Shown piece after piece: positions 4,242 through 16,289 of a stretch of 64,000 nt of DNA. Made by a program: the position numbers and the translations under genes. The notes under the pieces are model-generated. The model made no database searches. It saw nothing but the letters and a program-made list of their open reading frames with translations, and was not told the origin of the DNA. Source of the stretch: an uncultured Desulfobacteraceae bacterium (GTDB lineage: Bacteria; Desulfobacterota; Desulfobacteria; Desulfobacterales; UBA5852); the NCBI GenBank assembly GCA_913060875.1, contig CAJXSL010000001.1:248001-312000 (forward strand), written 5' to 3'. The number at the start of each line of letters is the position of its first letter. Positions within the stretch are counted from its first letter, which is position 1.

Positions 4242-4573
4242 AGAGTTCAGGTTCCTTCTGCCGCATTTATTGCTAACACTATCCTAACACTGAGGTATCG
4301 GTTTTTTTGGGTATGACTTTAGGGATTTTTCTCTTGCTGAAAGGATACGGCAAACGGCATGATGGTCGCCTTGCATGCACCTTTCGTTAAAGGGGCAGGC
4401 CATCGCTTGCAAGGATTCCCTTGGTGATTGGGTATGGATACGCAACCGAAATCTGTAACCTTTGACGGCAACGAAGGTCTTTATGGGGCAATATGACGTG
4501 ATGATCGTTTTGAACCCGCATTCGTTTGATTCCAATTTACCGTGAACCGAAATCAATTAGAGGAGATCATCTT
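4242..4573. other. Divergent intergenic region with a tandem CTAACACT repeat
   Basis: This 332-base gap separates the minus-strand TonB receptor gene from the plus-strand YeeE/YedE genes, so it must hold both promoters. It contains CTAACACT twice in direct repeat with an 11-base period at 4273-4293, about 30-50 bases upstream of the receptor start, a position that would suit an operator. I see no convincing gene; a 90-codon minus-strand frame lacks any recognisable motif. Confidence 0.5.
4273..4293. repeat. Tandem direct repeat, candidate operator of the TonB receptor operon
   Basis: The octamer CTAACACT occurs twice, 11 bases start to start, that is about one helical turn. It lies in the 5' region of the minus-strand TonB receptor gene. 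Tandem sites on one DNA face are typical of dimeric regulators, but no regulator can be assigned. Confidence 0.35.
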
Positions 4574-5101
4574 ATGAAACGAGCCTGGAACCCATATCTG
4601 GCCGGCGCCCTCGCCGGGGTGCTCATGATCCTGTCGGTAGCAATCGCCGGCAAGTATTTCGGTGCCTCGACCACCTTTGCCCGGGGGGCGGCGACCATCG
4701 AGCAGACGGTGGGCGTCGATACCTCGCGTTATGAATACTTCACCACCAAGGGCGGTAAATACGGCCCGGGCTCCCTGCCCAACTGGCAGTTGCTGTTCGT
4801 GGTGGGCATTGCTCTGGGCGGGCTGGGGGCTTCGCTGGCCTCGGGAACCTTCGAGGTCAAACGGGTGCCTGACATGTGGGCGGCCCGATTCGGTGATCGG
4901 CCCCTGTGGCGCAATCTGGCGGCCTTTGCCGGGGGCATCGTTCTCATTATCGGCGCGCGCCTGGCCGGGGGGTGCCCCAGCGGGCACGGCCTGAGCGGAC
5001 TGTCCCAGCTGGCCGTGAGCGGATTTGTGGCCCTGGCCTTTTTCTTCGGCGGCGGTTGGGTTACGGCAAGACTGTTGTACGGTAAAGGAGGGGAACGATG
5101 A
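4574..5101 (+). CDS. YeeE/YedE family membrane protein (first of pair)
   Basis: Integral membrane protein of about 175 residues in the YeeE/YedE (sulfur-transport, PF04143) family. Characterised relatives such as TsuA import thiosulfate. It has about five hydrophobic segments and the family cysteine signature in GARLAGGCPSGHGLSG, where the Cys is thought to pass the sulfur compound. The ATG at 4574 is chosen over an upstream in-frame ATG because AGAGGAGA sits 8 bases before it. The gene overlaps the next, a paralogous half, by 4 bases (ATGA). Each half carries one Cys motif, so the pair probably makes one transporter that other species encode as a single chain. Thiosulfate as substrate is inference. 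Confidence 0.9.
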   Translation: MKRAWNPYLAGALAGVLMILSVAIAGKYFGASTTFARGAATIEQTVGVDTSRYEYFTTKGGKYGPGSLPNWQLLFVVGIALGGLGASLASGTFEVKRVPDMWAARFGDRPLWRNLAAFAGGIVLIIGARLAGGCPSGHGLSGLSQLAVSGFVALAFFFGGGWVTARLLYGKGGER

Positions 5102-5625
5102 TGAGCTTACTCTATGGACTGGTATCGGGGATTTTGTTCGGCGTTCTCCTGCAGCGGGCCGAGGTTCTGCGCTACGACCGCCAGGTGGGGGCCCTGCGTT
5201 TGATGGACATGACCATTTTTAAATTCATGCTCACCGCCATCATGGTGGCTTCGGTGGGGATTTATTTCCTCAAAGATATGGGGATCGTGAGCCTCAGCCT
5301 GAAAGCGACCGGCTTTGGCGCCCAGATCGTGGGCGGGACCCTTTTCGGCATCGGCTGGGGGCTTTTGGGCTACTGCCCGGGAACCGCCGGCGGGGCCCTG
5401 GGCGAAGGGCGTCTGGACGCCGCCTGGGGCCTGTTGGGCATGTTGGCCGGGGGGGCGGTCTATGCCGCCATCTATCCGGCCCTGAAGGCCACCGTGCTCG
5501 GGCTGGGCAACGTGGGCAAGGTGACCCTGCCCCAGGTGATGGGCGTGTCCCACTGGGTGGTGATCGTTGCCATGATTGTTCTGTTCCTGGGGGCGTTCAG
5601 GGTGTTTGAGAAGAAGGGGCTGTAG
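5098..5625 (+). CDS. YeeE/YedE family membrane protein (second of pair)
   Basis: Second half-size YeeE/YedE protein (about 175 residues), translationally coupled to the first by an ATGA overlap and preceded by AAAGGAGGGG. It carries the second family motif, GWGLLGYCPGTAGGALGEG, with the conserved Cys, and four to five membrane segments. The N-terminus SGILFGVLLQRAEVLRYDRQ is typical of the DUF6691/YedE half. It probably pairs with the upstream protein for uptake of thiosulfate or a related sulfur compound, a sensible need for a sulfur-reducing anaerobe. A strong hairpin terminator lies about 230 bases downstream. Confidence 0.9.
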   Translation: MMSLLYGLVSGILFGVLLQRAEVLRYDRQVGALRLMDMTIFKFMLTAIMVASVGIYFLKDMGIVSLSLKATGFGAQIVGGTLFGIGWGLLGYCPGTAGGALGEGRLDAAWGLLGMLAGGAVYAAIYPALKATVLGLGNVGKVTLPQVMGVSHWVVIVAMIVLFLGAFRVFEKKGL

Positions 5626-5994
5626 TGTCTATGATCGGCGCCTTGATCGTTGGGGAGATTATCGGGGGTCAAGGGGCCGAGGATTCTAGTGAAATGCGCC
5701 AACCTCAAAGCGTCAAGCTGAAAGGGAAACGCTTCACATCGACCGCGAACCGATTTTCTGATTTCTCACGTTCTCTTTTTTAGCCGTTTAGCCTCGGTTC
5801 CTGGGCCCTTTTGGCCAACTTATATTGAGAAGCACCACCTTACCTAATATTCTGACGAACAAGCCGCCGGGAGAACCCAATTCTCCCGGCGGCTTGTTTC
5901 TTTTGATCTCGCCAGCGTCAGCTTGACCCCACGCCGGTTTGGGCCTAAAATTATCCCAAGATCCCATGAACCCGCCCACCAGCAGAGGTTTGCC
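5626..5994. other. Intergenic region with terminator, no gene seen
   Basis: This 369-base gap has no open frame with protein-like composition. Its one clear signal is the 17-base-pair hairpin at 5859-5897 followed by a T-rich run. The phrase GGGGCCGAGGATTC...AGTGAAATG near 5665-5695 recurs in similar form near 57784-57818, which suggests old dispersed-repeat remnants. Confidence 0.5.
5859..5905 (+). terminator. Intrinsic terminator, 17-bp perfect stem
   Basis: The arms 5859-5875 and 5881-5897 are perfect inverted repeats around a CCCAA loop, with a GC-rich core (GCCGCCGGGAG), and are followed on the plus strand by TTCTTTTG. It would end transcription from the YeeE/YedE pair before the next gene starts at 5995. 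The lower strand also has an A-rich flank, so it may work both ways. Confidence 0.8.
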
Positions 5995-7683
5995 ATGACG
6001 GAACTGACCCGATCCCAGAAGGCCCGGGTGGCCATCCGCAGTTTCAAAACCGGTGTGGATGCCATCGGCCTGCGGGGGTATTATCGCCCCACCGACCTCA
6101 TTGGCCAGGCCCTGGCCGACAGCCTGCGGATATTGAGCCCGGAGATATACGGCTCCATGAACGATCCCCGGGTGGTCGAACTCAACGGGCTGGAATATGT
6201 CATCGACCGGCTGCCCCGGGGCATCGAGCGCTGTAACCGGGTCATCCTGACGGAAGAGGATGGTTTCGAGGGCACCAATTTCGAAAAGATCGAACCCCCC
6301 AAGCGGCGTCGGACCTCTTACATGGTCAGCGATACGGAATTGTGTTTCGTCATTACCCGGGGGCTGAGCGAGATCTACGATATTCTGACCCACCTGACCT
6401 TTTTGACCAGCGAAGCCCAGAAGATCCAGGAGCGCATGCGGGACGATACCGGCCATGCCACCGTGGAATGGCTGGAACTGGAAAAGACTGTTCGCGGGGG
6501 GGCGCCCGCTTCAGGAGCGGAACTGGACCAGGCCCTCTGGAATTTGAGCATCATCCTGGGGCGTTCTTTCAAGGAAACACGCGAGACCTACGAATACCTC
6601 GAAACCGGCCGCCTGGAGAGCAACAGCAATGCGGGCCTTTTCGCCCTGGTCTATCACCTCGGCCGGCGTGTCGACGAAGAGAAGCGCGCGCCCGAGAACG
6701 CCCTGATCGTCTATCTCACCCCGGCGCTCATGAACAGCATCGGTCACCACAAATACGGCAAGCCCTGGGCCGCGACCCTCAAGGCGAAATTGATCGAGCT
6801 GGGGCTGGACCAGCGCCCCCTCCATATTATCAGCGCCAATTTGCACAGTGTGGTCAACCTGCTCTATGGACCGGCGGCGCTGGGTGCCGGCAAGGGCAAG
6901 GGCGGAGTGGGAGAGGTGGTGGACATGGTCTGCCGCCTGCTGGAAGAGCGGACGGATGTCTGCGCCGTCGGTGCCGAGGCCGGTCTGTACCTCATGCGGG
7001 ACACCGCCGGAACCCACGTGGACTGCCAGATCATCGACACGGCGCGCATCGACCCGGATACGGTGCACCCGGAGTTGGACGTGGCCGCTTTACGCGAGCA
7101 GACCGAGAAGCCGGTAATCCTGGTCATGGACTACGCTTTTGGCGTCCAGGCCTTCGAACTCATGGAGAACCTGCTGTATCCCCATTGGGAAGATGAAACG
7201 CCGCAGTTGTTCGACATCCGTTCGATCGCCGTCATGGGCAAGGCCGGCATCCTGGCCGGCAACAAAGGCGACATCATGCTGGCCACGGCCCACGTGATCG
7301 AAGGCACCACCGACAATTACACGGTCGCCAACGATCTGGCGCCGGAGGATTTCGGTGACGATATTCCCATCTATTCGGGTCCCATGCTGACGGTGGTGGG
7401 GACCTCGCTGCAGAACCGCGATGTGCTGCGCCGCATCCAGCGCGGCTGGAACGCCGTGGGCCTGGAGATGGAGGGCGGGCACTACCAGCGCGCCATCAAT
7501 GCCGCCATCATCAAGGGCAACATTCCCCCCGACATCAAGCTCCGCTATGCCTACTACGCCTCGGACAATCCCCTCCAGAGCGGCCAGACCCTGGCCTCGG
7601 GGCCCATGGGCCAGGAAGGACTGGCGCCGACGTACCGGATCACCAAGGTGCTGCTGGAAAAGATATTGGCCGACGCCGGGTGA
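5995..7683 (+). CDS. Large cytosolic protein of unknown role, phosphorylase-like C-terminus
   Basis: A 562-residue soluble protein without signal peptide or membrane segment. I recognise it only as a conserved hypothetical family (possibly DUF6909, unverified). The ATG at 5995 is preferred over one at 5923 because AGAGG precedes it. The N-terminal two thirds match nothing I can name. The C-terminal third has motifs in the order seen in nucleoside phosphorylases and nucleosidases: MGKAGILAGNKGDIMLAT, then LTVVGTSLQN, then AVGLEMEG (Glu491-Met-Glu-Gly494), then YYASDNPLQSG. In that superfamily the EME motif contacts the ribose and the SD motif the base. It stands alone between two terminator-like regions. 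Nucleoside or nucleotide cleavage is an inference. Confidence 0.8.
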   Translation: MTELTRSQKARVAIRSFKTGVDAIGLRGYYRPTDLIGQALADSLRILSPEIYGSMNDPRVVELNGLEYVIDRLPRGIERCNRVILTEEDGFEGTNFEKIEPPKRRRTSYMVSDTELCFVITRGLSEIYDILTHLTFLTSEAQKIQERMRDDTGHATVEWLELEKTVRGGAPASGAELDQALWNLSIILGRSFKETRETYEYLETGRLESNSNAGLFALVYHLGRRVDEEKRAPENALIVYLTPALMNSIGHHKYGKPWAATLKAKLIELGLDQRPLHIISANLHSVVNLLYGPAALGAGKGKGGVGEVVDMVCRLLEERTDVCAVGAEAGLYLMRDTAGTHVDCQIIDTARIDPDTVHPELDVAALREQTEKPVILVMDYAFGVQAFELMENLLYPHWEDETPQLFDIRSIAVMGKAGILAGNKGDIMLATAHVIEGTTDNYTVANDLAPEDFGDDIPIYSGPMLTVVGTSLQNRDVLRRIQRGWNAVGLEMEGGHYQRAINAAIIKGNIPPDIKLRYAYYASDNPLQSGQTLASGPMGQEGLAPTYRITKVLLEKILADAG

Positions 7684-7964
7684 CAGCCCCTTCCCATGGG
7701 GTGCAGGACAAACCAGGCGTGCCGCCCTTACCCTGAACAGGGGCGTGGGGGACATACGGGAGGCTGTTCGTTCGTGTGCTTCCGGGAACAGCTTCCCCCA
7801 ACCCGCCGATAAAACCGTTGTCCTTTTCCCGGGGCCCTGTTATGGGAGCCTGCCATGACCGCCGGAACCCGGCGGATGAAGCGTGGCGGGTAGCCCGATT
7901 ATTTCACGCGTTCGCGATTTTCATTTGTGTAGAAAAAATTTCATGACATGTTCGGGGTAGATCT
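7684..7964. other. Leader of the ECF genes; hairpins, no recognised riboswitch
   Basis: This 281-base gap precedes a vitamin-type importer operon, where a riboswitch would be expected. It holds a hairpin at about 7763-7795 (GGCTGTTC against GGGAACAGC), another at 7860-7876 (CCGCCGG against CCCGGCGG) and, at its end, a 70-base repeat shared with 16287-16549. I could not match the conserved cores of cobalamin, TPP, FMN, THF or ZTP riboswitches. Confidence 0.4.
7891..7960 (-). repeat. Short copy of a MITE-like element (family also at 16287-16549)
   Basis: Read on the minus strand, this 70-base unit begins CTACCCCGAACATGTCATGA, contains an A/T run with TTTTTTCTACAC, and ends CGAACGCGTGAAATAATCGG. 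Both ends recur, in the same relative order, at 16287-16319 and 16522-16549, where about 200 extra bases lie between them. The two termini are imperfect inverted repeats of each other (CCCGAACATTTCA type). The unit ends 4 bases before the TTG start of the ECF ATPase gene. Confidence 0.6.
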
Positions 7965-9275
7965 TTGCTGCAATGGAAACATGACATACCAACGCGCTAC
8001 TTCGCGACCTATGAAGCGCTCGAAGAGGCCTTCCGGGAGCGCATTGCCGGACTGGTGCCGCGTTACCACGCCGGAACACGGGTGTTCTGGGAAGATTTTC
8101 AGCAGCTTTACGAGAGCCCCCAAGCCCCGGGGCCGGGGGATGCCGAGGCCTATATCACCATCAATCCCCGGGACTGCCTGGCTTTTGGCTCCCCTTACCA
8201 GGTGTTGCAGGCCGCCTGGCTTGCGGCCCGGCAACATCAGGCGTCGGCGCCGGAAAGCCCCCGCCATGTTGCGGAAAAATTCGGGCTGGGCGGGCAGCTG
8301 CACCAGGCCATGCGTTCCCTTTCCGGCGGTGAAACCGTGCGGCTGGCCCTGGCCAAGGCGTACCTGGCGGCCCGGCATGCCGACCGCCTGACCATCGCCA
8401 GCCCTTTCAGCTGGCTGTCCCTGGATCACTGGACCGATTTCCGGATGCTGGCGGAACACTACGGCAACTGCGGCACGCCCCTGGAGCTGTTTGCCCTGGA
8501 AGGCGAGGATTCGACCGCCCCGGCCCCCTTCGGCGGCGCGCCGGCGCCCCTGACCTTTGCCTGGCGCCTGAAGGGGCTGCGGCTGGATCTCGGCACCCTG
8601 ATGGACCATCTGCACGACCGGCCGGTCTGGGCCGGGGTGGTGCCCCGGGATGAAACCCTGGATTCACCCTGTCTGCTGTGCGGCGACAACGGCCAGGGCA
8701 AAAGCCTGGTGGCCAAAACACTGGCCGCGGCCATGCCCTACACGGGTGAGGCTTCGGTGCACGTGTCCGGTGCGCCTTTGCGGGCGCGTCTTCTCTTCCA
8801 GGATGTGTTCAACCAGACCCTCATGCGCTCCATGCGGCAGTTGACCAGCCGGGGGAATACCGGCCCTGTGGCGGCGGTCTTCGAAGAGATCCTGGCGGCC
8901 ATGGGGACGCCGTCCGCCGCGGGCAGGACGCAAAACCTGTCTTCCCGCGTGGGGCAGGGAGACAGGAATCCCCCCAGCCTGCTCGAACTGAAAATACTCC
9001 TGACAGCGGTCCGGCTGGCGGCGGGGACGACCGTTCTGATCCTGGACGAGCCGGATTGGGGCTTGAGCCGATCGGATGCCGTGGCTTTCGTGACAGCGGT
9101 GGTGAATGCGGCCCATGCCCGGTCGGTGCCGGTGATCCTGATATCCCACAAGCCCTGGTGGCAGAACCTGGCCCGCAGTGTGCGCTGGGTCTGGAAAGAA
9201 ACCCCGGCGGCGCCGGATGCCGGGGGATGCCTTTTTCAGGTCCATATCCAGGACCGGCCGGGAGGTGACGCGTGA
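7965..9275 (+). CDS. Single-chain, internally degenerate ABC ATPase of an ECF-type importer
   Basis: Energising ATPase of about 436 residues with two ABC-like halves. The N-half has an intact signature, LSGGE at 119-123, but no Walker A and no Walker B acid (DRLTIASPF replaces it). The C-half has Walker A GDNGQGKS at 240-247, a Q-loop Gln at 279, Walker B VLILDEP at 356-362 and an H-loop His at 395, but no recognisable LSGGQ. One composite ATP site is therefore possible. The start must be the TTG at 7965 or nearby, since an in-frame stop lies at 7944-7946 and no ATG occurs before residue 116. It overlaps the next gene by 4 bases. The N-half's missing Walker A may reflect truncation next to a repeat element. 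Confidence 0.8.
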   Translation: MLQWKHDIPTRYFATYEALEEAFRERIAGLVPRYHAGTRVFWEDFQQLYESPQAPGPGDAEAYITINPRDCLAFGSPYQVLQAAWLAARQHQASAPESPRHVAEKFGLGGQLHQAMRSLSGGETVRLALAKAYLAARHADRLTIASPFSWLSLDHWTDFRMLAEHYGNCGTPLELFALEGEDSTAPAPFGGAPAPLTFAWRLKGLRLDLGTLMDHLHDRPVWAGVVPRDETLDSPCLLCGDNGQGKSLVAKTLAAAMPYTGEASVHVSGAPLRARLLFQDVFNQTLMRSMRQLTSRGNTGPVAAVFEEILAAMGTPSAAGRTQNLSSRVGQGDRNPPSLLELKILLTAVRLAAGTTVLILDEPDWGLSRSDAVAFVTAVVNAAHARSVPVILISHKPWWQNLARSVRWVWKETPAAPDAGGCLFQVHIQDRPGGDA

Positions 9276-9988
9276 AAGTATCCCATCGGCTCTTGGCCCT
9301 GGTGCTGCTGGCCATTCCGGTCTTTACCGGCTGGCACCCCCTGGCAAAGGGGGCCGAGCTGCTGCCCGGCGTGCCCTGGGGGCCGGTGGCGATCGTCGCC
9401 ATTGTGCTGGGCGGCGTGGCGGTTTGCTGCGGTCGGGCCTTTCTGGCCAATGCCGTGGCGATAACCGCGTTGATTCTGGTGCCCATCGTCTATGCCGGTG
9501 GCGGTGTGTCCTGGCTGCTGGCGGTCGCTAAGGGGACCGCACCGGGGGCTGCCGGGCAGGTCCACGGCGCTCACTACGTCGGACTGGCCTTGAACATGCT
9601 CGGCGTCATCCCCCTGGCCCTGGCCATTGTGGCGTCCATTCCCTTCGATCGCCTGGAGCAGCGGCTTTTACAGGGGCGGCGGGGCATCTCCGCGGGTGAA
9701 AAATACCTGCTCATGTTTCTGCGGGTCTTCAATCATATCGTCTATTTTGTTATACCCAACCTGCTGGAAGTCATGCGTGAGGAAGCCCTGTGGCGCCGGA
9801 CGCCGGCCCATGCCGCCGGACCGGCCCCCCGGCGCTCGCTCCGGGCCTGGGCGCAGGGCCTGGTGGCCGGCATGGTCCAGATCAGCGTCAGCGGGATCTG
9901 CGCCTCCTTGCGGTATATCCCCCTCTGGGCCAAAGAAATCGATGAACTGCCTCCGCGAACCCCTCAAAAGCACAGGAGCCCAAAGTGA
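9272..9988 (+). CDS. Membrane protein, probable ECF T component
   Basis: Membrane protein of about 238 residues with four to five hydrophobic segments (near residues 5-25, 35-75, 100-122 and 145-165), then a basic cytosolic stretch (LEQRLLQGRRG) and a C-terminal amphipathic region. Overlaps of 4 bases on both sides place it between an ABC-type ATPase and an S component, the slot of the EcfT scaffold that couples ATP hydrolysis to substrate release. I do not see the classic Ala-Arg-Gly motif pair of EcfT clearly, so this assignment rests mainly on context and topology. Confidence 0.7.
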   Translation: MKVSHRLLALVLLAIPVFTGWHPLAKGAELLPGVPWGPVAIVAIVLGGVAVCCGRAFLANAVAITALILVPIVYAGGGVSWLLAVAKGTAPGAAGQVHGAHYVGLALNMLGVIPLALAIVASIPFDRLEQRLLQGRRGISAGEKYLLMFLRVFNHIVYFVIPNLLEVMREEALWRRTPAHAAGPAPRRSLRAWAQGLVAGMVQISVSGICASLRYIPLWAKEIDELPPRTPQKHRSPK

Positions 9989-10530
9989 AATCGAACACCC
10001 AGATGCAACAGCTCATTCTCGTTGGCGTGACCGCGGCTTTTGCAACCCTCGCCTTTCTGGGAACGACCGTCATCCGGATCCCCATTCCCGCCTCCGGGGG
10101 CTATTTCAATCTCGGGGACACTTTTGTCATGGCCGCCGCCCTGTTGTACGGCCCGGTGGTCGGCGGGCTGGTGGGTGCCATCGGTCCTGCCATGGCGGAC
10201 GCGGTGGGATTTCCGCAGTTCATCCTGGCCACAGCGGTGGTGAAAGGGATCGAAGGCCTGCTGATCGGCCTCTTGGCCGGACGCCGGCCCCGCCCGCTGC
10301 GGGCCGTGCTCGCGCTGGCGGTCGGGGTGGTGATTCTGGTGGGGGGCTACTATATCTTCGAGGCGCTCATCTATCCCCTGCTGGCCCGCAGCATTCCCTT
10401 TTTCGGGGTGACCGATGCGGCCGCGGCCCTGGCGGAACTGGTGCCCAATCTCCTGCAGGGGGGCATCAGTGCCCTCATCGCTTTCGGGATCTGGAAAGTG
10501 CTGGCCCGGCGGGTCGGCGGAGGAGGTTGA
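9985..10530 (+). CDS. ECF transporter S component (substrate-binding membrane protein)
   Basis: Membrane protein of 181 residues with about six helices and the pattern of ECF S components. RIPIPASGGYFNLGDTFVM is followed by LLYGPVVGGLVGAIGPAMAD and ILATAVVKGIEGLLIGLLAG. S components bind vitamins or metal precursors and dock on the T component. The gene overlaps the T-component gene by 4 bases and ends the operon. The vitamin or cofactor carried cannot be deduced, since no linked biosynthesis gene or recognisable riboswitch is present. Its downstream flank is a 188-base inverted-repeat element. Confidence 0.88.
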   Translation: MKSNTQMQQLILVGVTAAFATLAFLGTTVIRIPIPASGGYFNLGDTFVMAAALLYGPVVGGLVGAIGPAMADAVGFPQFILATAVVKGIEGLLIGLLAGRRPRPLRAVLALAVGVVILVGGYYIFEALIYPLLARSIPFFGVTDAAAALAELVPNLLQGGISALIAFGIWKVLARRVGGGG

Positions 10531-13033: not shown

Positions 13034-13834
13034 ATGAATACCTCGTCTTATCCTATGATGCCGTTCACCCGACTCGGGCAGTTTGCCATTGCACGGTTGC
13101 GTCGGATGGGGCGCTATGCCTTGTTTTTCCTGCAAAGTTTCGTGCGTATTTTTTCCTGGCCCCTGCCGGTGGCCAGAATCCTTCAGCAGACGTATTTCAT
13201 CGGCATGAAGTCGGTCTCGATCATATGCCTGACAGCTGTTTTCACCGGCATGGTGCTGGGCTTGCAAGGCTATTACACGCTGGTCAAATTCGGTTCCGAG
13301 GGGGTGCTGGGGGCCGCGGTGGCCCTGTCCCTGATCCGGGAGATGGGGCCCGTGCTGACCGCCATCATGCTGATTGGCCGAGCCGGATCGGCCATGGCGG
13401 CGGAGCTCGGCATCATGCGCATTTCCGAGCAGATCGACGCCCTGGAGACCATGGACATCGATCCGCTTCGCTTCCTGGTAAGCCCCAAGTTGGGCGCGGC
13501 CCTGATCAGCATGCCCCTGCTCACGGCCATCTTCGACGTGGTGGGCATCATCGGCGGTTACCTGACGGGCGTTCTTCTCTTGGGCATCAACTCGGGCATC
13601 TATTTCGCCCGGATCCAGTCGAGTGTCGAGATGGCCGATGTTACCGGCGGGTTTGTCAAATCGCTGGTGTTCGCCGTCGTTATTGTAACGGTCTGTTGTT
13701 TCAAAGGCTTCAACACCCACGAAGGGTCGGAATACGGCGCCAAGGGCGTCAGTGTTTCCACCACCTCGGCCGTGGTGATTGCCAGTGTGCTGGTACTGGT
13801 TACGGACTATATCCTGACATCCTTGCTCCTTTAG
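13034..13834 (+). CDS. mlaE: MlaE-type phospholipid ABC transporter permease
   Basis: Inner-membrane permease of 266 residues in the MlaE family, which with MlaF, D and C moves phospholipids between the inner and outer membranes. It shows the family stretch FTGMVLGLQGYYTLVKFGSE, the coupling region LIREMGPVLTAIMLIGRAGS and AMAAELGIMRISEQIDALE, followed by several transmembrane helices. The start at 13034 gives the usual family length and has GGAAG just upstream; a longer frame back to 12770 would add an unusual 88 residues. It heads a four-gene unit with only 3 bases before mlaF. Confidence 0.94.
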   Translation: MNTSSYPMMPFTRLGQFAIARLRRMGRYALFFLQSFVRIFSWPLPVARILQQTYFIGMKSVSIICLTAVFTGMVLGLQGYYTLVKFGSEGVLGAAVALSLIREMGPVLTAIMLIGRAGSAMAAELGIMRISEQIDALETMDIDPLRFLVSPKLGAALISMPLLTAIFDVVGIIGGYLTGVLLLGINSGIYFARIQSSVEMADVTGGFVKSLVFAVVIVTVCCFKGFNTHEGSEYGAKGVSVSTTSAVVIASVLVLVTDYILTSLLL

Positions 13835-13837
13835 CTT

Positions 13838-15046
13838 ATGAAGACACCATTCATTCAATTTGCCGGCGTTACCAAGGCCTTCAACGGGCATACGGTGCTG
13901 CAGGGCATCGACCTGGAGATATACCAGGGCGAGATTACCACCATCATCGGCAAGAGTGGCGGCGGCAAGAGCGTTTTGCTCAAACACATCATGGGCCTGC
14001 TGCGGCCGGACGCCGGCCGCATCGTTATCGACGGACAGCCCCTGGGCCAACTCAAAGGACGGGCCCGACGGCGTTTGCGGCGGCGCTTCAGCTACATGTT
14101 CCAGGACTCGGCGCTTTTTGATTCGATGACGGTTTTCGAGAACATCGCCCTGCCGATCCAGGAGCGGGGCCGTATGAAAGCGGACGAAATCGAAGCCCGT
14201 GTGCACGCCCGCATGCGCGAACTGGACCTGGGGCCCATCGATAACGAATACCCCTCCCAGTTATCCGGCGGCATGAAAAAACGGGTGGCCCTGGCCCGGG
14301 CCCTGGTAACCGACCCGGAGGTCGTGCTGTTCGACGAGCCCACCACGGGATTGGATCCGGTCCGCAAGAACAGCGTTCACGCCATGATTGCCGAATATCA
14401 GCAAAAATTGGGGTTTACAGCTGTTTTGATCAGCCACGAAATACCGGATGTATTCTACTTTTCCCAGCGGATCGCCATGCTGCACGAGGGACGGATCATT
14501 TTCACCGGAACCCCGAATGATCTGCAATGTCTGTCGGATCCGGTGGTGCATGAGTTTATTCAGGGCTTCGAGAACCCCAACGGGGATTCACCCGAGCCGG
14601 TCCGGCAAGGGTCCTGGGAATCGACGTTCAACGCCGAAATGGCAAGGATGCAGCACCACAAGGTGTCCTTTGCCCTGGTGGTCCTGACCATTGAAAATCT
14701 GGCGGAAATCCTGGGCCAAGAAGACGCCGATGCCCCGGGGGTGGCCCAGCGGTTTGCCGACCGTATCCGGGCCCAGTTGCGCGTTACCGATACCTGCAGC
14801 CTGGCCGGACCCAATATGGTGCTCCTGCTGCTGCCGTTCACCAATCTGTCCCAGGCTAAAATGGTCTGCGCCAAATTGGGGCGAACCCTGAACGGCCAGG
14901 AAATCGCCGGTATCCAATCCTGCCAGGAGGCCTGCATGGCCATCAGTGCCGGCGTTGCGGAGGTGCAGGGCAATGGTCATCCGGAGCGCACCCTGGCCCA
15001 GGCGTTGGAGCGAAAAGAGATTTTTTATCAATTCAGTGTGTGTTAG
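13838..15046 (+). CDS. mlaF: MlaF-type ATPase with C-terminal degenerate GGDEF-like domain
   Basis: ATPase of the Mla phospholipid transporter, but 402 residues long rather than the usual 250-270. Residues 1-245 are a complete ABC domain: Walker A GKSGGGKS (38-45), Q-loop MFQDSALFDSMTVFEN, signature LSGGMKKR, Walker B VVLFDEP and H-loop SHE. Residues about 265-402 are extra. SFALVVLTIENLAEI, a helix ending RIRAQLRVTD, then LAGPNMVLLLLPFTN and ISAGVAEVQ follow the layout of a diguanylate cyclase (GGDEF) fold. The catalytic GGDEF signature is replaced by AGPNMV, so activity is not expected; a binding or regulatory role is inferred. It is downstream of mlaE and upstream of mlaD. Confidence 0.92.
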   Translation: MKTPFIQFAGVTKAFNGHTVLQGIDLEIYQGEITTIIGKSGGGKSVLLKHIMGLLRPDAGRIVIDGQPLGQLKGRARRRLRRRFSYMFQDSALFDSMTVFENIALPIQERGRMKADEIEARVHARMRELDLGPIDNEYPSQLSGGMKKRVALARALVTDPEVVLFDEPTTGLDPVRKNSVHAMIAEYQQKLGFTAVLISHEIPDVFYFSQRIAMLHEGRIIFTGTPNDLQCLSDPVVHEFIQGFENPNGDSPEPVRQGSWESTFNAEMARMQHHKVSFALVVLTIENLAEILGQEDADAPGVAQRFADRIRAQLRVTDTCSLAGPNMVLLLLPFTNLSQAKMVCAKLGRTLNGQEIAGIQSCQEACMAISAGVAEVQGNGHPERTLAQALERKEIFYQFSVC

Positions 15047-15108: not shown

Positions 15109-15555
15109 ATGAAAAAAGCGTCGATTGAGACGGCGGTTGGCATTTTTGTGTTCATCGGCATTCTGTGTGTCGGCTACCTTACCGTGAAATTGGGGAAAAT
15201 GGAGCTCCTGGGCAAGAATTACTATTCTGTCCAGGCCCAGTTCGAATCCGTGGCCGGCCTGAAAGTCGGTGCCAGTGTCGAAATGGCCGGCGTTCCCATC
15301 GGCAAGGTGGAAGCCATCTCGCTGGATATCGAACGCCAGATCGCCCGGGTGAGGATGAAAATCCAGAGTGACGTGGCCATCACCGACGATTCGATTGCCT
15401 CGGTCAAAACCGCCGGGTTGATCGGGGACAAGTATATCAAGCTCAGTCCCGGCGGGTCGGATCTGATCCTGAAAGCCGGTGACACCATTATCGAAACGGA
15501 ATCGGCCCTGGACCTGGAGGATCTCATCAGTAAATACGTTTTCGGCGGCGTCTGA
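15109..15555 (+). CDS. mlaD: MlaD-type MCE-domain lipid-binding protein
   Basis: Membrane-anchored MCE protein of 148 residues. An N-terminal helix (TAVGIFVFIGILCVGYLTV, residues about 7-25) is followed by one MCE domain: VQAQFESVAGLKVGASVEMAGVPIGKVEAI, then IASVKTAGLIGDKYIKLSPGG. MlaD hexamers line the lipid path in the periplasm above MlaE. The ATG at 15109 is chosen over one at 15040 because GGAG precedes it and the upstream 23 residues break the usual MlaD N-terminus. It sits between mlaF and mlaC, as expected. Confidence 0.93.
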   Translation: MKKASIETAVGIFVFIGILCVGYLTVKLGKMELLGKNYYSVQAQFESVAGLKVGASVEMAGVPIGKVEAISLDIERQIARVRMKIQSDVAITDDSIASVKTAGLIGDKYIKLSPGGSDLILKAGDTIIETESALDLEDLISKYVFGGV

Positions 15556-15656: not shown

Positions 15657-16289
15657 ATGATGAAACGATATGGCTTGATCCTACTACTCGCCGTGCTGAT
15701 GCTGCCGATCACCCAGGCGGCAATCGCCGGCGAACCGAGCGACGTCATCAAGGCGCCGATGGATGAGGCGCTGGCCCTGTTGCGGGATCCGCAATACCAA
15801 TCGGACGACCCCCAGAAGCGGGCCGAGCAGCGGGAAAAATTTTGGGCCATCATCGAACCGGCGTTTGATTTCATGGAATTGTCCAAGCGAACCCTGGCGC
15901 GCAACTGGAAAAAATTCGACGACGCCCAAAGAGTGGCCTTTGCCGAAGTCTTTTCCGATCTTCTGGGCAATATCTATGTGGATCGCATTCAGGGCGAATA
16001 CAATGACGAGACCATCGAATTCGGCGATCAATTCCTGCACGAATCGCGCCCGCTGGCCGTGGTCAAGACCTTCATCGTTTCCTCCCGGAACCGCATCCCG
16101 GTGGACTACAGCATGATTCAAAAAGAGGACACCTGGCGCATTTACGACGTCAAGGTCGAAGGGATCAGCCTGGTCAAGAATTACCGCTCCCAGTTCAAGG
16201 AGATCCTGGCCAAAGAATCCCCGGATCAGTTGATCGAACGTCTGAAGGAGAAAGTCGCTGCGCAGAAAGCGAATCTGGCCAAAGGGTAG
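15657..16289 (+). CDS. mlaC: MlaC/Ttg2D family periplasmic phospholipid carrier
   Basis: Exported protein of 210 residues with a signal peptide (MMKRYGLILLLAVLMLPITQ, cleavage near AIAG). It belongs to the MlaC/Ttg2D family, which shuttles single phospholipids across the periplasm. Typical segments are FMELSKRTLARNWKKFDDAQ, FAEVFSDLLGNIYVDRI and a central beta sheet with VSSRNRIPVDYSM and IYDVKVEGISLVKNYRSQF. GGGAG precedes the ATG at 15657. It is the last gene of the Mla unit; its stop codon TAG forms the first bases of a repeat element. Confidence 0.93.
   Translation: MMKRYGLILLLAVLMLPITQAAIAGEPSDVIKAPMDEALALLRDPQYQSDDPQKRAEQREKFWAIIEPAFDFMELSKRTLARNWKKFDDAQRVAFAEVFSDLLGNIYVDRIQGEYNDETIEFGDQFLHESRPLAVVKTFIVSSRNRIPVDYSMIQKEDTWRIYDVKVEGISLVKNYRSQFKEILAKESPDQLIERLKEKVAAQKANLAKG

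Follow-up and report, generated by a model that had tools for sequence, protein, structure and literature searches.

The 64,000-nucleotide stretch of DNA analyzed here (the window) encodes an MlaF ATPase whose C-terminal tail is, as judged from profile searches and a predicted structure, a true GGDEF-fold domain. Sequence comparisons indicate that the catalytic nucleotide site (A-site) has been destroyed in every tail of this kind and that the MlaF-GGDEF fusion is a phylum-wide architecture, reaching well beyond the single protein considered in the first-pass annotation. By analogy with other ABC ATPases, this pseudo-GGDEF tail probably controls the Mla transporter.

The protein is encoded in a plus-strand operon, mlaE-mlaF-mlaD-mlaC, identified with Pfam and NCBIfam models. 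The permease gene mlaE (positions 13034 to 13834; PF02405, 264.2 bits) lies within an open frame that starts further upstream; its likely start is the ATG at 13034, as homologues begin at the methionine of this codon (e.g., the 266-amino-acid protein of locus L046). The mlaF gene with its C-terminal pseudo-GGDEF domain (13838 to 15046, 402 amino acids) begins with an ATG, has full-length homologues, and is located 3 bp 3′ of mlaE and 62 bp 5′ of mlaD. It is followed by mlaD (15109 to 15555), which encodes an MCE protein (PF02470, 81.8 bits; TIGR04430, 163.8 bits against a cut-off of 135), and by mlaC (15657 to 16289; PF05494, 143.6 bits), which encodes a periplasmic lipid carrier. The order mlaE-mlaF-mlaD(-mlaC) is nearly constant around tailed mlaF genes, including extra loci in other families. 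A frameshift or annotation artefact is ruled out by the identical open frame across dozens of genomes. Elsewhere on the plus strand of the window (7965 to 10530), three consecutive genes resemble, from a reading of their translations, an ECF-type transporter with ATPase, T component, and S component.

Residues 1 to 244 of MlaF (13838 to 14569, plus strand) constitute the ABC ATPase domain, as delimited by PF00005 and by alignment to Escherichia coli MlaF. The ABC_tran (PF00005) match covers residues 21 to 170 (128.9 bits), and the set of ABC ATPase motifs is complete, with Walker A (GKSGGGKS), signature (LSGGM), and Walker B (VLFDEP). The LSGGM signature is typical of Mla/TGD-type ATPases, and its methionine in Mla-type ATPases has been described previously (PMC7367683). 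Among the best NCBIfam matches is that to the MlaF model NF008809, at 175 bits, which is below the curated cut-off of 441 for this model. The alignment with E. coli MlaF (269 amino acids) extends to about residue 244, where the C-terminal extension of the E. coli protein starts. The initial reading, which had the ABC domain complete by about residue 245 and the protein running on to residue 402, is borne out by a real open reading frame and by an ABC end near residue 244. The linker (residues 245 to 257; 14570 to 14608, plus strand) starts where the E. coli extension starts, and in the full-length model residues 245 to 258 have a pLDDT below 50, forming a low-confidence connection between two domains.

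The pseudo-GGDEF domain spans residues 258 to 402 (14609 to 15043, plus strand), an assignment based on Pfam GGDEF, a profile search, and the predicted fold. The Pfam GGDEF model matches residues 260 to 389 with 24.5 bits in the whole protein and 27.7 bits in the tail alone, above the gathering score of 23.8, and every one of the 31 proteins in an initial set of homologues matches it too (best E value, 3.7e-21). A profile of the tails retrieves solved GGDEF structures with E values down to 4.9e-22. Comparison of a predicted structure with GGDEF folds had been set beforehand as the test of the degenerate GGDEF-like domain proposed for this region, and residues 244 to 402 are indeed predicted to adopt a GGDEF fold. 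This AlphaFold model, built with 31 homologous tails, has a mean pLDDT of 79.6 and a pTM of 0.77. Foldseek searches with the tail model gave an E value of 1.5e-7, and among the matches listed, all PDB entries contain GGDEF. A second structural alignment superimposed the model on PleD (2wb4) with a Z score of 16.8 and an rmsd of 2.6 over 147 residues, and all 50 of the entries listed for it contain GGDEF.

The active-site signature of diguanylate cyclases is lost in the tail. The segment LAGPNMV (residues 322 to 328; 14801 to 14821, plus strand) aligns in place of R-[YF]-GG[DE]EF, with G324 to V328 (GPNMV) lying over GGDEF, in agreement with the AGPNMV substitution noted at first. The catalytic and metal-binding set of D327, [DE]370, and E371 (PleD numbers) occurs together in none of 71 unique tails, nor do any of these tails contain a GG[DE]EF, [AS]G[DE]EF, or YxAKxxG motif; the window protein has T, N, and M at positions 327, 370, and 371. 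Since none of the 71 tails keeps the catalytic residues, the tail is a dead GGDEF domain, and an active diguanylate cyclase is ruled out. PleD and other active cyclases share with the window tail the fold and the spacing of the inhibitory site (I-site), whereas the catalytic residue set is absent from all 71 homologues.

The replacements are consistent over both deep clades of tails: in PleD numbers, Q stands for D344 in 58 of the 71 tails, N for E370 in 49, and T or S for D327 in 54. Such consistency would be expected if the dead domain bound another ligand, a nucleotide or a metabolite, in an A-site remodelled by exchange of its acidic residues for T, Q, and N. This appears quite improbable, as the GTP-phosphate and metal ligands are gone and none of the searches suggested a ligand. 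Moreover, the window protein is among the more diverged tails and deviates from the pattern, with Pro at 344, Leu at 335, and Leu in place of R366, a residue retained in 67 of the 71 tails. The DxLTG start motif, kept by most other tails in the linker stretch, is likewise lost in the window protein and its own family. Three cysteines (residues 320, 344, and 366 in window numbering) are conserved in about 75 to 80% of clade I tails (42, 41, and 40 of 53, respectively). Although they were considered as a putative metal site, the secondary-structure layout suggests that they probably lie buried in the core, towards different ends of the sheet.

Counted as listed matches that span the tail, full-length homologues with both ABC domain and tail are present in 25 of 58 relatives and in 57 of 192 genomes of the class (own genome included in both counts), as well as in 28 genomes of the phylum outside the order. 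Their identity to the window protein ranges from 81 to about 40% across the order; a search of genome contigs with the single protein yielded just one close relative. Elsewhere in the same order, genomes encode MlaFs that end near residue 245 to 263, and the existence of many such proteins shows that the tail is not essential for the transporter as such. On the tree of the ABC domain, the long or short state changes eight times, with two changes forced by well-supported branches, which implies repeated gain or loss of the tail or else limited resolution of the tree. In the tree of the tails, all 71 fall on one side of a fully supported branch that separates them from ten GGDEF domains, a small outgroup made up of nine domains of the own genome and 3ign. 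This single clade fits one origin of the tails, within such limited outgroup sampling.

The ratio dN/dS is 0.18 to 0.41 for the tail and 0.08 to 0.20 for the ABC domain, values which point to purifying selection on the tail. Relative to the closest homologue, identity is 77% in the tail and 86% in the ABC domain; the quicker evolution of the tail is also what an accessory domain under weak constraint would show. Were the tail a functionless remnant of an old fusion, now in decay, this would explain its faster evolution, the degenerate motifs, and the many lineages without a tail, with eight changes of the trait on the ABC-domain tree. This reading is nonetheless barely plausible, given that the frame has stayed open and the whole fold preserved across many families, that the dN/dS values of the tail are in the range given above, and that both the core and the replacement residues are conserved.

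GGDEF-type domains often pair in diguanylate cyclases. Because a folded domain of this often-pairing type starts where the extension of the E. coli protein does, the simplest function to deduce for the dead GGDEF extension of this Mla-type ATPase is that of a built-in module which pairs or regulates the ATPase dimer, and by analogy we give this reading about an even chance. On the cytoplasmic face of the MlaF pair, the tail would take the place held in E. coli MlaF by the 25-residue “handshake” extension, and it would pair or clamp the two ATPase subunits. This pairing or clamping may in turn set the assembly or activity of the transporter, as regulatory domains at the C terminus of MetN and other ABC ATPases do. 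Like the window MlaF, MetN carries a folded domain of regulatory type straight after the ABC domain, although the fold is different; MalK and ModC are further ABC ATPases with C-terminal regulatory domains. The extension of E. coli MlaF is needed for function and reaches round the neighbouring MlaF, its loss being largely restored by artificial dimerisation, and in other ABC ATPases, folded domains at the C terminus self-associate below the ATPases (PMC7367683). The window protein and E. coli MlaF within MlaFEDB (PMC7367683; PDB 6xbd and others) have ABC domains homologous over their full length, the same operon partners mlaE, mlaD, and mlaC, and the LSGGM signature. They differ in that the E. 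coli extension has no compact fold and is accompanied by MlaB, whereas the window protein has a folded dead GGDEF domain of about 145 residues and mlaB is missing beside its operon. The structure model of the window MlaF is a monomer with a low-confidence linker.

The first-pass annotation had seen no STAS-domain mlaB gene and had proposed that the tail may replace MlaB. The first of these statements holds, in that no STAS gene was found near the window operon, several STAS proteins being encoded elsewhere in the genome; an MlaB may thus still be encoded at a distance from the operon. Among the matches listed for 58 relatives, PF13466 does not occur beside any window-type MlaF. A STAS profile, which detected E. 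coli mlaB as a positive control, matched, among 40 MlaF loci, only the four that carry the second mla operon found in the genus, and none of 20 further MlaF loci. The proposed replacement is weakened by the same survey, as tail-less MlaFs of the same order and phylum equally have no mlaB nearby. MlaB is also sparsely distributed among diderms, and the Veillonella system functions in its absence (PMC10665443). The absence of mlaB is therefore ordinary and says little about the tail. A tail that stands in for MlaB would dock on the helical subdomain of MlaF and stabilise the complex as E. coli MlaB does, and it would start at the right place, since the E. coli extension that begins there contacts MlaB; mlaB is, in addition, neither in nor beside the operon. 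This is decidedly unlikely, however, considering the commonness of MlaFs with neither tail nor nearby mlaB, the unrelated folds of GGDEF and STAS domains, and the STAS gene that adjoins the operon of the second tailed MlaF of the genome.

It is common for GGDEF domains to have a second site for c-di-GMP binding, composed of an RxxD motif and a basic residue on the next helix. In the window protein, RVTD (residues 315 to 318; 14780 to 14791, plus strand) aligns as an I-site-like RxxD exactly at the spacing of PleD and SgmT, a motif not conserved family-wide, and K346 (14873 to 14875, plus strand) aligns with the third I-site-like position (PleD 390). This basic residue is 31 positions past the arginine, as in SgmT (R763/D766/R794), although it is a lysine here and not an arginine. 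SgmT and PopA (PMC3509222) and PelD (PMC7112168) are proven c-di-GMP receptors whose GGDEF domain is dead but has an intact I-site. The window tail has in common with these proteins the GGDEF fold, the destroyed active site, and the RxxD motif; unlike them, it is attached to an ABC transporter ATPase, has lysine as the third residue, and belongs to a family in which the I-site, here a predicted one, is patchy.

If the tail were a c-di-GMP receptor of the PelD, PopA, and SgmT kind, binding at the inhibitory-site triad R315/D318/K346 would gate phospholipid transport. In favour of this reading, GGDEF proteins occur in all 28 tailed genomes checked, and the own genome has about 16 other GGDEF domains, nearly all of which have the motif. 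As several GGDEF proteins occur in every one of these 28 genomes, the search for tailed genomes without c-di-GMP enzymes was uninformative. The frequency of RxxD in the own genome (14 of 16 other GGDEF domains) also marks the motif as the default of true GGDEF domains, so that in the tail it is perhaps merely inherited. Across the family, the full triad is present in only 27 of 71 tails: clade I keeps the Arg in 32 of 49 tails and the Asp in 45 of 49, whereas clade II has Gly in place of the RxxD Asp in all 22. Within clade I, K/R390 tends to accompany R359 (27/32, versus 10/17 otherwise), a tendency that is not significant (Fisher P = 0.08, uncorrected for kinship). On balance, the receptor reading is rather unlikely. 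The incompleteness of the I-site across the tails means that c-di-GMP reception cannot be the family-wide function, and for clade II it is ruled out by the glycine. The idea that the tail senses a second messenger thus stands in part: the window protein has the triad, and c-di-GMP sensing is possible for it from its sequence, but most tails have no full triad, clade II has lost it, and the A-site is destroyed throughout. For the pairing or regulatory module proposed above, the most tangible candidate for a switch ligand in the window protein is c-di-GMP, bound at the preserved I-site. The broader proposal that c-di-GMP or another cytoplasmic ligand binds the dead GGDEF domain of MlaF and so directly gates outer-membrane phospholipid transport is a minority possibility, slightly ahead of the receptor reading.

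The question of Mla transporter regulation is still open (PMC7367683), and MlaB is absent from most diderm bacteria (PMC10665443). A conserved, phylum-wide pseudo-GGDEF domain in MlaF offers a second, testable route to this regulation. If c-di-GMP is bound in the lineages that keep the I-site, the lipid balance of the envelope would be tied to the signal by which many bacteria control their life on surfaces. If ligand gating holds, an ABC lipid transporter would be controlled post-translationally, widely within one phylum, by a domain borrowed from second-messenger enzymes. The component families are known, and what appears new from the sequence comparisons is their combination, its breadth, and the consistent inactivation. 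No published description of an MlaF-GGDEF fusion was found in the open-licence literature. An ammonium transporter with a GGDEF domain (PDB 8qj3), retrieved with the tail profile, is likewise a transporter protein carrying GGDEF; it differs from the window system in transporter class, and the window tail has lost the catalytic motif.

The same genome contains a second mla operon (locus L045, G000:C4:97000-109000, positions 4288 to 8552), composed of a pseudo-GGDEF-tailed mlaF, a gene for an RsbW/SpoIIAB-like kinase (HATPase_c_2, 69.5 bits), mlaE, mlaD, and mlaA. The locus further includes a STAS gene in convergent orientation, SpoIIAA-like and containing an SSAG motif, and both the kinase gene and the STAS gene are found in the three other genomes of the genus that have this locus (L047, L049, and L061). 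With a partner-switch kinase encoded in an mla operon, the phosphoregulation suggested for MlaB-type proteins would become open to test. At a further locus (G000:C2:39403-41376), and at similar loci in relatives, an MlaF-like ATPase (34% identity) adjoins a frame of about 409 residues with a STAS match, which looks, from that match, as if STAS were fused to an MlaE-type permease of a paralogous system.
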